From Microscilla marina ATCC 23134 (GTDB lineage Bacteria > Bacteroidota > Bacteroidia > Cytophagales > Microscillaceae), in contig NZ_AAWS01000003.1 in the NCBI RefSeq assembly GCF_000169175.1, forward strand, positions 186,001 through 250,000: a DNA stretch of 64,000 nt, in the 5' to 3' direction. Under the pieces are notes generated by a model, which worked only from the letters and a program-made list of their open reading frames with translations, had not been told where the DNA came from and ran no database searches. The position numbers and the translations under genes are program-made. Shown here one piece after another: positions 27,111 to 32,549 of this stretch (positions are counted from its first letter, which is position 1; every line of letters starts with the position of its first letter).

Positions 27111-28088
27111 CTAAAGCTCTTCTTTTGCCTCCTCCAATATTTTGCTGATGGCTTTTGCGATGTCAATCACTTGCTGTTTGTAGTCATTTTCATTGACTAA
27201 GCCTTTATGATGATTGAGCTTTAGGCTGTGATAACTTCCAGAAGTGATAATCACTTGTTGCTCGTAGGCTTGATCATACAAGTTATGTTTTACCAACAAC
27301 TCTTGAGTCATCGTCAGGGCTTTCTTCAACTTAGCTTTGTCGAGGCACTTTTTTATCTTGATTTCTTCTGCCAAAAATGCTTGTTGCTCGGCAGATGGTT
27401 GTCCATTTGCTTGGTGGTTGGGTGCTTGAACCAACCTAAAATTTAGCGCTTGTTCGTCAAGAAAATAGAGTCCCCAATCAAACCCTTCGTCTTCGAGCTT
27501 TGCGTGAGGTGAGTCCTCAACCTTGCTCCATCGCTTGGGGGCTTCTGCCAATCGTGTTTTTTTGCTTACCTCTTCAGCCGCTTCAATAAAGTTTTGAGCA
27601 CTGGCAAAGGCTTCCTGTATGGAAGCTCCCTTCGCTAGGTTTTTATAAAAGTATTGGGCAAATTTTGCCGCTTTTGCATCACTTATATTCACCTTTGCCG
27701 CAATCACCACCTTTAGCCCCAAATCAAACAATGCGTTTACATGGGCATAGGTAGAACAACCATTCAAAAAGATTAACTTGAGCGACGTTGGATTTTTTTG
27801 GCTTAACTCGTTTGCCAAGGGGTAAAAAAAAGCCGCTTTGTCTTGCAACCTCAACCCTTGCCAGTTGGCGTGCCCTCCAAAGTGAAAGATAGTTACTTGG
27901 TTTTTCAAGTTTTGCAGGTATTCAAAATAAGCAGGTAAGTCTAGCCCTGACCGACTAAAGTGCCTGAGTACTCCTCGAGTCTCCAAGGAGGCTAACTCGT
28001 CTTGCATGGCGTTTTTTTCTTTGTTGAGGCTTGGCAGATTTTCGTGTGGATCGGCAAAAGCGGAAAAAATAACGGTGTTTTTGTTCAT
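27111..28088 (-). CDS. CHAT-domain (caspase-like) protease with C-terminal EAD11-like domain
   Basis: A 325-residue protein. Residues about 5-225 form a CHAT domain of the caspase/separase clan. The catalytic dyad is visible as His73 in I-F-H-F-G-G-H-A-N and Cys111 in L-I-F-L-N-G-C-S-T. The C-terminal part (about 238-325) reads I-K-K-C-L-D-K-A-K-L-K-K-A-L, then I-T-S-G-S-Y-H-S-L-K, G-L-V-N-E-N-D-Y and I-A-K-A-I-S-K-I-L-E-E. This is the helical pattern of the effector-associated EAD11 type and parallels the small protein encoded just upstream. No signal peptide, so cytoplasmic. It is the last gene of a three-gene minus-strand set, 74 bp after the adaptor gene. Family CHAT proteases cleave partner proteins in immunity or cell death; that role here is inferred. 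Confidence 0.88.
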   Translation of the reverse strand: MNKNTVIFSAFADPHENLPSLNKEKNAMQDELASLETRGVLRHFSRSGLDLPAYFEYLQNLKNQVTIFHFGGHANWQGLRLQDKAAFFYPLANELSQKNPTSLKLIFLNGCSTYAHVNALFDLGLKVVIAAKVNISDAKAAKFAQYFYKNLAKGASIQEAFASAQNFIEAAEEVSKKTRLAEAPKRWSKVEDSPHAKLEDEGFDWGLYFLDEQALNFRLVQAPNHQANGQPSAEQQAFLAEEIKIKKCLDKAKLKKALTMTQELLVKHNLYDQAYEQQVIITSGSYHSLKLNHHKGLVNENDYKQQVIDIAKAISKILEEAKEEL

Positions 28089-28162
28089 TTGGGTGGTGGT
28101 TTAAGGGCTTATTAAAACTTGCGTAAATGATCACGCAAGTTTTAAATTGTTTTCTAGAAGGG

Positions 28163-28552
28163 TTATTTATGATTATTCACGTTTCCTTTCACGCTCCCAA
28201 AAACCATGTTGCTGTCTCCAGTTACTTGTATATTGTTTTCGGTTTTGCCTGCCTCGTGGTTTTTATTTTTAGCCTCTTCGGGCAATTTCAAGTCTTCTTC
28301 TTCCATTATATCTACCAAACCCAAAATAGCCTCCATGATGTTTACATGGGTAATACTGGCATCGTTCCAATCTATAGTTCCCTCCCTTAGTTGCTTTTGT
28401 AACAAGGTAAGCCTGCCCGATTGTAGGATGGCTTCGTTGAGCATATCGTGCGCCAACAATAGCTCTTTTAACGCACCAATGGCGGTATCTAAACGCCCTT
28501 GCCCTACCAAACGTTTGATTCTTTCGAGTGGTTCTTTCATGTCCTTCATCAT
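28163..28552 (-). CDS. EAD11-like adaptor with glycine/asparagine-rich tail
   Basis: A 129-residue protein. Residues 7-85 form an EAD11-like helical domain: I-K-R-L-V-G-Q-G-R-L-D-T-A-I, I-L-Q-S-G-R-L-T-L-L-Q-K-Q, E-G-T-I-D-W-N-D and I-M-E-A-I-L-G-L-V-D. A charged linker leads to a tail at 107-127, N-I-Q-V-T-G-D-S-N-M-V-F-G-S-V-K-G-N-V. The ATG at 28552 shares one base with the TAA of the preceding gene (TAATG), a classic coupled start; longer starts were rejected. EADs in related conflict systems make homotypic contacts. The domain also occurs in the CHAT protein and the tail motif in the large protein, so this is probably the bridge between them. Confidence 0.85.
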   Translation of the reverse strand: MMKDMKEPLERIKRLVGQGRLDTAIGALKELLLAHDMLNEAILQSGRLTLLQKQLREGTIDWNDASITHVNIMEAILGLVDIMEEEDLKLPEEAKNKNHEAGKTENNIQVTGDSNMVFGSVKGNVNNHK

Positions 28553-30840
28553 TACATTCCAGTGAGTTTTGCGAATAAACCAACCAATGGGAAGCAACCT
28601 TTTTTTGAGGTAAGGCTTACACCCGCCAACTTGCTAAACCGCCCTTTTAAATCTCGCAAATTTTCTTGCTTTGTCAGAATCTCTTGCCTTTGCTGTTTTC
28701 GTTTTTTCTTGTCGTGCCTATCCAAGTTTCTAATTTGGACGCTATAGTCTTGTATTTGCTTTTCCCACCCCTCGATGAGGGCAAGTTTTTGCTCCCGATT
28801 GGCATATTGCACAAACAACTCTACATACTTTTGGCTGGCGGGCTTGTTCCCCTTTACTGGTTCTTGTGGTGTTTCTAGCGAGGTGAGTTTTCTAAACCAA
28901 ACTTCTGTCAGAATAGCACGGGCTTTGTCAATCACTCGACAAATATTTTTTTGATCAACACTCAATACATTTCCCTGCTTGCTGCCATCGTGTTTGATGT
29001 CTCTCAGGGGCAAATATTTAGATCGGTTGTGGTAGCCTATTTCTAACCTGGAGTTAAACAGCCAACTTGCCAAGAGGTGAGGGTTGACGTGGGCGAGCAG
29101 GTTAAACTCATCGAGCTTATAAAAACCCCAATAATCAACAATGAAGGAAAGAGAATAGCTCTCGATGCTGGTTTGTGCCTCTTTTTGTTCCCACGGGGTT
29201 GTTTTTTCGCTTTTGGGCAACCACTCGCCTATGCCTTCCTCAAGAAAGTCGTACAAGTCTTGGGCATTTTCTTGGTAACTGTCCGCCAACCGCAACAAGA
29301 GATAATATGCTATGTTTTTTGTCTCTTTTTTGCCCAATCCCATCATCAGTTCAATCCAACGGTACTTGTCAAAGCCTTCCATTGCCTTCAGCTCAAAAGT
29401 AATGTCTGCCAACAAGTTGCGCGGGGTTTTATTGATCTCATAGCGGTAGTCGAGGTGTTCGAACAAGAAAAACTCTATGCGTTCGGTCAACAGCATATTG
29501 TCTAGCTTGAGCATGGCATAAGTAAGCTCCACCAAAAACAGGCGAAGGGTAGAGACTATGTCGGTTGGGGAGTCTTCATTGGTAGCAAAAGACTTGAAAA
29601 GACTTGATACTTTGTGCAGTAGTTTGGTGCCGTAAAAATGGGGATCGTTTTTGGCAAGTTCGCAAGAAATCTGGATAAAATACTCAATGGTTTGGTCGGA
29701 GGTATCGGGGGCAAAAGGCAACCCAGAATTTACCAAATTGTCGAACTGTTCGAGCAAGAAAAAAGGCATTTTACTTTTGAAATAATGTTTGTAAGCCTCC
29801 CTATCTCTAGCATCGACAAAATCTACCTTTTGCAAATCGTTCTCTTGCTCTATGGCAAGCCCACACGCTTCGAAAAAATCGTCGGTTTGTTGCTCCCACA
29901 AATAAAGCAGGCTTCGGGTCCTGAGGGCTTCCGTGCGCTTGAGTATTTCGTCCTTGTCGCTCATTTCGCGGGTAGCATCCGTCAATATTTCGTCCTTTTT
30001 TTCAGACAACAACACATCTACTATTTTTTTAAACTCTTTGGGGCTGGTGCGAGGAAAAAACGTAGCTACATACAATATATATTTAAATACAGAGTGGTTC
30101 TTGTCGTATAGCTTTGAGTAGTCAAAGGCTGATATAAACTCTTGAATGGTGTTGATAGGGGGCGAAGTATCCCAAAAATGAAAACTAAAATTGCCCTTTT
30201 TTTGGTTGGTAAGCGTTTGTACTTGTCGTGTGTCGTTGAAATAGCAGATAATGGTCAAGTTTTTTGCCCTTAAGGTATTTCTTATCTCAATGGCGCCTTG
30301 TTCGGGCATTTCTACTATAGATTTGAGAAAGGTATCCGACGCTTTGTTTTTGGTAATGTCAATGGCTACCAAGGCATTTTGGGGAAAGGCTTCTTCTGTC
30401 ACCGAATCGAGGTAAATGTTGCGTTGGGCGTTGTTTTTACCCCAAAACGATAACCAACGATGTTCTTGAGGAGCATCAGGCTCATATTTTTTTATAATGT
30501 TGTGCAATGTTGCCACCACATTGCTACCCGACTTGCCTCCCAAAAAAATAATTCTTTCTTGATACATCTCGGCAAGGGTTTGCTGCAAAGCCTCCTCGTT
30601 CATATACAAAGGTTGCACGTTTTCTTGCAGGGTAAAATTTTCGGTAGGGTCTTTAAAAACTTCTTTTTCTTGAGGCATTCCAGCGGCATAAATGGTTACA
30701 TCGCCGCCCACTTCGCCAAAACTGGTGTTTTCATTGCCAGTTGCCGACACATTGTTTTGCTGATGGGGAGTGTTGTTTGTGATTACTTGGTTGAGGACTT
30801 CCTTTGCCTCATTTTTTTGAAGATTTTTAACTAAGTTCAT
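28552..30840 (-). CDS. Large conflict-system protein with degenerate P-loop (STAND-like) and tail motif
   Basis: A 762-residue cytoplasmic protein. Residues 29-50, N-N-V-S-A-T-G-N-E-N-T-S-F-G-E-V-G-G-D-V, repeat the tail motif of the adaptor encoded next. Then R-I-I-F-L-G-G-K-S-G-S-N-V at 96-108 looks like a strand followed by an altered Walker A; A-L-V-A-I-D-I-T near 155 and L-T-I-I-C-Y-F-N-D near 200 could be the following core strands. This would make it an inactive or atypical STAND-like NTPase, an inference. The rest is mostly helical, with a basic coiled coil near 710-740. It ends in a hydrophobic stretch (C-F-P-L-V-G-L-F-A). First gene of the set, its stop overlapping the adaptor start. 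No named family recognised for the C-terminal two thirds. Confidence 0.75.
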   Translation of the reverse strand: MNLVKNLQKNEAKEVLNQVITNNTPHQQNNVSATGNENTSFGEVGGDVTIYAAGMPQEKEVFKDPTENFTLQENVQPLYMNEEALQQTLAEMYQERIIFLGGKSGSNVVATLHNIIKKYEPDAPQEHRWLSFWGKNNAQRNIYLDSVTEEAFPQNALVAIDITKNKASDTFLKSIVEMPEQGAIEIRNTLRAKNLTIICYFNDTRQVQTLTNQKKGNFSFHFWDTSPPINTIQEFISAFDYSKLYDKNHSVFKYILYVATFFPRTSPKEFKKIVDVLLSEKKDEILTDATREMSDKDEILKRTEALRTRSLLYLWEQQTDDFFEACGLAIEQENDLQKVDFVDARDREAYKHYFKSKMPFFLLEQFDNLVNSGLPFAPDTSDQTIEYFIQISCELAKNDPHFYGTKLLHKVSSLFKSFATNEDSPTDIVSTLRLFLVELTYAMLKLDNMLLTERIEFFLFEHLDYRYEINKTPRNLLADITFELKAMEGFDKYRWIELMMGLGKKETKNIAYYLLLRLADSYQENAQDLYDFLEEGIGEWLPKSEKTTPWEQKEAQTSIESYSLSFIVDYWGFYKLDEFNLLAHVNPHLLASWLFNSRLEIGYHNRSKYLPLRDIKHDGSKQGNVLSVDQKNICRVIDKARAILTEVWFRKLTSLETPQEPVKGNKPASQKYVELFVQYANREQKLALIEGWEKQIQDYSVQIRNLDRHDKKKRKQQRQEILTKQENLRDLKGRFSKLAGVSLTSKKGCFPLVGLFAKLTGM

Positions 30841-31228: not shown

Positions 31229-32549
31229 TCTAATGCTCTTCAACCAGTTCAATAATGCGTTAAAATCATCCTGAAAAACCTCTATTTGTTCAATATAGTT
31301 TTTCACCGTTTTCTTCTTTAATAATTTGATAGTCAGTGTTCTAAGTTCGGTAAAAAGCATTTGGATAGTTTTTTCTTTGACCTTAGTTGATCTTCTTTGA
31401 GAGTTACATCTCTAAGGAATGGTGAGAAATTAAATTACCATTCTTGAGGTAGAGGTTTTGTTTTGAGACGAGGCTATTTTTTGCGCCTATAGCAGCGCTA
31501 CGGGCAATAACCGATGGCTACAGCTACGCTGTGCCGAGCTCTGCCAACGGCTAAAAATAACGAAGTATCAAGGCGAAAAATCACCTCTCAGAGTGTAAAT
31601 TTATTTTTGAACAATTCCTAAGGTGGTTATTCACCTCGACACTCCAATGATTTCTTACTGCATCAAATATACCTTCCTTTTCTGTTTCATTAGATATATA
31701 ATAACTTACTTCGCTACTTATTTTTGCATTTTTTTGATTGATACGGGTTCTTTGAACTTTTACTAGGCTTTTAAAGGCTGTCTCATCCCAACGTGGATCA
31801 AAATCTTGCTTAATTATGTCATATAACCAATATTTTCTTTGCTCAACTCTCCCATGATTGAAGTCAAAAGTTGTTTTTTGATCTATTGCTGGAAACTCTT
31901 TGGCGTAATCAGTCATATCAGCGAGCAATATTGATTGTTTTTTTTAAGTCCAATTAAAAAGATTCCTCCTGCCTTAGTGATGGTTTTGGTAGTATCAGGA
32001 CAAAGCTGTAAAGCATCCAAAGTAATTTTTTGACTTGCAAGATCATTTTTAGAAAGTAAAGTACATAAAGCAGGTATTTCACTTTCTTTTTGCCCATCAT
32101 AGTAATTTTGGGCGATCACTTCTCCTGAATGATGGTTAACAATTTGAACTACCGCCTATCCTCGTTTTTTACCTGATTCAATACTTCCGCGTAACTCTTT
32201 ACCATCACCACTAAACCATTGCTTTTCCGCAGGGTCTAAACGAAAGTTATAATGCGTAAATAACAGGTAGTCAAATACTTCCATATCTACTTTTTGTAGT
32301 AAAATAGGTAGATGAGAACGAGAAACTACTGGGGGTTCTGGTATACCCAAAAAAGTACATAAAGCAGAATGGGTGTTGACCATAACTACGATGAATACTT
32401 GAAAGAACTCCATCTCTTTTGCGAAGTATACCTAATAATACGCCTAGCAAAACAAAAGCTAGGTTATGTACTTTGCCACGAGTATCTCTAAGATCTAAAG
32501 CTGGACAATTTTGCATTTCTTCATAAAAACTTTTTCCTTTGGCTAACAT
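31229..32549 (-). pseudogene. ISAs1-family DDE transposase remnant
   Basis: Pieces occur in order on the minus strand but in shifting frames. They are L-D-L-R-D-T-R-G-K-V-H-N-L-A-F (start near 32549); W-F-S-G-D-G-K-E-L-R-G with the first catalytic Asp; I-T-L-D-A-L-Q-L-C-P-D-T-T with the second; G-R-V-E-Q-R-K-Y-W; and R-N-H-W-S-V-E-V-N-N-H-L-R. Then, beyond the MITE, D-V-T-L-K-E-D-Q-L-R supplies the third acidic residue. At least three frameshifts plus the MITE insertion make it inactive. Assignment to the ISAs1 (H-repeat-like) group rests on the D-G-K-x-L-R, I-x-x-D-A and D-V-x-x-x-E-D motifs. Confidence 0.8.
31416..31618. mobile_element. MITE, G(T/G)AATGG family, inside the transposase (203 bp)
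   Basis: Ends GGAATGGTGAGAAATTAAAT and ATTTATTTTTGAACAATTCC are flanked by TAA on both sides (31413-31415, 31619-31621). Deleting the element and one TAA rejoins the transposase reading frame as N-H-L-R-D-V-T-L, which shows the true boundaries and a 3-bp duplication. Confidence 0.9.

Follow-up and report, generated by a model that had tools for sequence, protein, structure and literature searches.

The minus strand of the DNA analysed here, a stretch of 64,000 nucleotides from Microscilla marina ATCC 23134 (hereafter the window), carries three genes in succession that encode a large protein, a small adaptor and a CHAT protease, and the question that this locus raises is what joins their products. 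The large protein (762 aa; 28552..30840, minus strand) has no recognised domain and is considered a putative sensor by virtue of its position. The adaptor (129 aa; 28163..28552, minus strand) is composed of an EAD11 domain (28301..28528, minus strand), identified by Pfam match (PF19964, E 3.4e-19), genome search and a helical AlphaFold model, and a C-terminal tag; its ATG overlaps the stop codon of the large-protein gene by one base (TAATG). The third protein (325 aa; 27111..28088, minus strand) contains, according to Pfam, a CHAT domain (27525..27953, minus strand; PF12770, E 2e-10) and a C-terminal EAD11 (27129..27359, minus strand; PF19964, E 1e-6). A near-perfect hairpin lies between the adaptor and CHAT genes (28112..28145; RNA fold -18.4 kcal/mol, z-score -8.3) and is terminator-like on the plus strand, and CHAT may be expressed separately from the adaptor, at a lower level or in attenuated form. 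Upstream of the operon (31581-32549, minus strand) several short overlapping ORFs have by eye the look of a broken transposase; the two that were compared with Pfam matched no family.

A connection between the first two products is suggested by a short motif that they share. The C-terminal tag of the adaptor (residues 106-129, NNIQVTGDSNMVFGSVKGNVNNHK; 28166..28237, minus strand) aligns without gaps to an N-terminal segment of the large protein (residues 29-52, NNVSATGNENTSFGEVGGDVTIYA; 30685..30756, minus strand) with 10 of 24 residues identical. A preliminary description of this DNA had pointed to such a motif in the two neighbouring proteins, at the C-terminus of one and near the N-terminus of the other; the motif is real and so is its placement, with residue numbering right to within one residue. 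The local alignment score of 57 is reached by four of 20,000 tail shuffles (Gumbel p ~5e-4; shuffle p ~2e-4 to 5e-4), and none of approximately 2,000 terminal segments from the genes of other loci equals it. When the tail alone is compared by phmmer with a six-frame translation of the window, the large protein comes first after the self match (E 0.19; the next hit has 3.7). A motif profile search of the 9.77-Mb genome recovered only the two tags of the window and no third copy, the profile itself containing both tags, which deprives its E-values of independence. A second Microscilla genome has both tags without any change, the three genes being otherwise 98-99% identical. Residues 96-129 of the adaptor are unstructured in the AlphaFold monomer (pLDDT <50), as expected for a tail that would become ordered only upon assembly. 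Taken on its own the window pair is suggestive rather than overwhelming, and a sceptical reading would be a chance similarity of two Asn/Gly-rich termini, for which the biased composition and the modest single-sequence phmmer value speak. Both the shuffles and the failure of any other gene end to score as high stand against this reading, as do the comparative data from other loci, because of which the window pair becomes convincing.

These loci were gathered by a Pfam search of genome samples and one profile scan of genome contigs, which together yielded 125 EAD11 ORFs in 114 loci. Each segment next to an EAD11 domain was set against the ends of the genes neighbouring it on the same strand, and tails were compared with whole neighbours as well, the comparison that disclosed the motif shared in L144 and L148. 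Paired tags are present in seven of the 114 loci, with strong pairs in the window, L053, L055, L068 and L094 and further pairs in L144 and L148. In L053 the EAD11 tail NQVEVEGDGNIVIQGVTGSTINI matches both NQAEVQGNQNIVIQEVSESSITI in the next gene and NITKIRGDKNINIQDIGTGVTINI in the previous one, in L055 IQITDSKNVNTGNVNTGGGNFRIGD matches MDIQSSKNIIAGSSVNTVGGNVHLGD, and in L068 it is the linker between EAD11 and CHAT (RDPIGRDKIERQINIGQGNYIENQTIH) that matches the N-terminus of an NB-ARC-TPR protein. The tag partners are mostly NLR/STAND or TPR proteins, those identified being NB-ARC-TPR proteins (L068 and L144), a TPR protein (L055) and a protein preceding nSTAND1 (L053), and the tag sequence usually differs from one locus to another. 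The tails of L144 and L148 have AxKIYNIxxIDxAxF in common with the next gene. This motif ends the EAD11 adaptors of L144, L146 and L148, lies inside a fused protein in L150, and recurs inside the neighbour, between NNH5 and NB-ARC of the NLR in L144 and in the partner protein of L148; the similar tail of L146 precedes an apparent broken TPR gene. Among nine standalone EAD11 proteins whose tails measure 39-71 aa, five have, on a strict count, the tail motif in the adjacent gene too, which leaves the chance reading very improbable.

When the tags of five loci are scored against one another, the within-locus score is the highest in each row (55, 65, 58, 109 and 61), the cross scores being 12-44, and an HMM built from the window pair misses the tags of the other loci (L053 scores E 33). 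The tags therefore behave as locus-specific codes rather than as one sequence family, with L144 and L148 using one code. A control set of 856 ordered pairs of non-EAD11 neighbours contained no such tag between unrelated proteins, and a reading of the alignments by eye assigned its high scorers to tandem paralogues, spurious ORFs or pieces of a single domain. The preliminary description had inferred a docking or oligomerisation tag within one operon, and had proposed to build an HMM of the segment and to ask whether its hits cluster in adjacent genes and next to EAD, CHAT, TIR or STAND domains. What recurs is the position of a linking tag beside EAD11, CHAT and STAND proteins; the sequence does not recur, and a single HMM fails because each locus carries its own matched pair. 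The motif profile of the genome search (A2) also included hand-picked tags of L053 and L078, which makes its E-values circular, and these were not used as evidence of homology.

The strongest argument for a linking role comes from relatives in which the same parts are fused. The 455 aa partner of L053 shares 45-53% identity with the C-terminal portions of the EAD11 fusions in L150, L145 and L149, of which the first retains a motif between EAD11 and the partner part and the other two have none; in L148 EAD11 and partner are again split. The partner in L053 is then followed by an nSTAND1 NTPase gene, and in relatives of L053 the following genes begin alike (FKFLD.Y...D.DIFFGR). L078 encodes EAD11, motif and NB-ARC-TPR as a single chain. 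Split genes with a tag on both partners thus have fused relatives, and since matched tags are found where the covalent link is missing, the tags would serve to hold the parts together. The same observations could be explained if the paired tags were functionless leftovers of gene fission, the linker of a fused ancestor having been duplicated at the break, as the single motif of L150 and its split counterpart in L053 might indicate. However, the tags persist in several split loci despite sequence divergence, the fusions of L145 and L149 manage without a motif, in L068 one protein carries the tag at its centre and the other at its end, and the tag of L053 is present on a third, unrelated protein as well. 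In the window, moreover, the matching residues survive although only 38 of the 72 bases encoding the tags are identical, and four of the ten identical residues are encoded by different codons. A fission remnant is therefore improbable. The base and codon differences also mean that there was no recent exchange of DNA between the two tag copies, which argues against a recent recombination joint of the kind that the preliminary description had considered possible. In a looser sense the motif does mark points at which modules have been fused or separated, as the L053 relatives illustrate, in which EAD11 and partner are fused with the motif between them or absent.

The second connection, between adaptor and CHAT protein, would be provided by EAD11 itself, which both the adaptor and the effector-bearing (CHAT) protein of this operon contain, as is expected of an EAD adaptor system. 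The adaptor EAD11 is helical in the AlphaFold model (pLDDT mostly 74-87), and a search of the PDB with this fold gave no significant match. Among the 125 EAD11 domains, the nearest to that of the CHAT protein belongs to the adaptor encoded in the same operon, the similarity being weak (24% identity, E 2.7e-5). Reading of the sequence shows that the CHAT protein retains the His in FHFGGHA and the Cys in FLNGCS. A core component (VMAP, iSTAND, GAP1 or Ubl) with an EAD fused to it is absent, the adaptor consisting of EAD11 and tag, and Pfam and domain searches recognised no core component of EAD systems in the window operon. Elsewhere in the same genome EAD11 is found on NB-ARC-TPR, LRR-Roc-COR and protein kinase proteins (L013, L015 and L018), which are possible further targets of the adaptor. 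A genome of another family (G139; e.g. L050, L064, L076 and L077) has 33 EAD11 matches, far above its relatives, and three matches lie close together on one of its contigs (C92).

The large protein offers less to go on. It has no match among Pfam, NCBIfam, PADLOC or PDB sequences, a search of 57 related genomes, 395 genomes of the class and plasmids found no homologue outside Microscilla, and profile comparison showed no similarity to NB-ARC, nSTAND1 or the L053 partner. Its AlphaFold model has a mean pLDDT of 42. Because no NTPase, STAND or repeat domain is recognised in it, the large protein is not a demonstrated NLR, and its designation as a putative sensor derives from its position.

The reading that we consider moderately probable is a three-gene chain in which the tag is a homotypic motif of the amyloid-signalling type (BASS-like). 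A trigger would activate the large protein and bring its N-terminal tags together; the clustered tags would adopt a beta structure and act as a template on which the matching adaptor tails are converted; the converted tails would gather the EAD11 domains of the adaptors, and these would in turn draw the EAD11 domains of CHAT proteins into the cluster, so that CHAT becomes activated by proximity. Such a chain presupposes that the tags bind physically and adopt an amyloid form, and its signal would run from the large protein, as the presumed sensor, towards CHAT, with defence or regulated cell death as the probable outcome. Counted against it are the strong hairpin between the adaptor and CHAT genes, which may uncouple their expression, the fact that loci with paired tags are a minority, the modest phmmer value of the window tags and the lack of any recognised NTPase or repeat domain in the large protein. 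More tentatively, and with rather less confidence than in the chain itself, it is proposed that Bacteroidota possess a two-tier signalosome combining amyloid-type tags with death-domain-like EAD adaptors. The tags would be exchangeable plugs that replace a fusion of sensor and EAD11, and EAD11 would fan out the signal to CHAT and to the genome's other EAD11 proteins (NB-ARC-TPR, LRR-Roc-COR and protein kinase).

An alternative is a finite, beta-structured docking of the tags into a heterodimer or small oligomer, with neither templating nor amyloid, the logic of the operon being otherwise unchanged. All the sequence evidence for pairing fits this equally well. The RHIM core is [IV]Q[IV]GxxNx[ML], and the absence of this core from the window tag also suits finite docking: IQVTGDSNMV has G-x-x-N but differs in register, with one extra residue before the G. 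The L068 tag INIGQGNYI, present on the EAD11-CHAT and NB-ARC-TPR proteins, comes near the RHIM core, which counts in favour of the amyloid-type reading, and invites comparison with RHIM, PP and BASS3, in the sense of working alike only. Finite docking is nevertheless less likely, since the arrangement seen here, homotypic pairs whose members occupy opposite ends of proteins from adjacent genes, with NLRs and a Bell-like protein nearby, is accepted as a hallmark of amyloid signalling motifs (PMC9815663). The sharing of a motif by neighbouring genes is the criterion by which such motifs are found (PMC9815663), and generic amyloid predictors are reported to discriminate BASS motifs poorly (PMC8086366).

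Among known systems, the closest to the templated chain are the bacterial amyloid signalling sequences BASS1-10, which occur in pairs of Bell and NLR genes (Dyrka et al. 2020, according to PMC7889193 and PMC8086366). As in those descriptions, a short Gly/Asn-rich motif is located C-terminally in one protein and N-terminally in its neighbour, the genes are adjacent or overlapping, and NLR partners, CHAT and a Bell-like protein (L053) are found at other EAD11 loci. Unlike the BASS pairs described there, the carrier in the window is a non-catalytic EAD11 adaptor rather than Bell or another effector, and its partner is not a recognised NLR, such partners being present in L068 and L144; furthermore, BASS was reported mainly from Actinomycetes, Cyanobacteria and Archaea, whereas the present loci belong to Bacteroidota. 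The Bell-like protein of L053 is a 138-aa protein that terminates in the tag and whose assignment follows from gene layout and weak similarity. Its only plasmid match is in Arthrobacter (33% over 69%, E 3e-3), where the relative overlaps a NACHT-WD40 gene with an N-terminal GDVGxL-like motif, a match that is weak alone and is reached by 15 of 2,000 shuffles. On that plasmid (pA58H2; L195, 4890-7254) the Bell-like gene is unannotated, and the two overlapping genes have weakly similar GDVG motifs at their facing ends, which corresponds to the way Bell and NLR genes are arranged in bacterial amyloid signalosomes (PMC7889193).

The second tier resembles the EAD networks (Kaur et al. 2020, PMC7159879; 2021, PMC8195603) in that one EAD type is present on adaptor and effector of the same operon, the effector is caspase-like, homotypic coupling is predicted and more EAD11 proteins are encoded elsewhere in the genome. 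It differs from them in that an EAD copy is there fused to a core component, whereas the window uses a short matched tag to reach the neighbouring protein; such tags are not described in the texts searched. Amyloid motifs (PMC7889193, PMC8086366, PMC9815663, PMC12261475) and EAD networks (PMC7159879, PMC8195603) are known separately, and in the literature searched, with the primary BASS paper outside its scope, no paper joins them, and the single paper in which both terms occur has amyloid only in the title of a cited reference. The small size of the proteins and peptides would allow a direct test of whether amyloid templating drives a caspase-like protease, and of the insulation between cognate tags. 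If the proposed chain is true, it would unite EAD adaptor and amyloid mechanisms, with matched-tag assembly similar to that of fungal prion-type alarm systems and a logic comparable to that of the animal systems which combine the death fold with RHIM amyloids.
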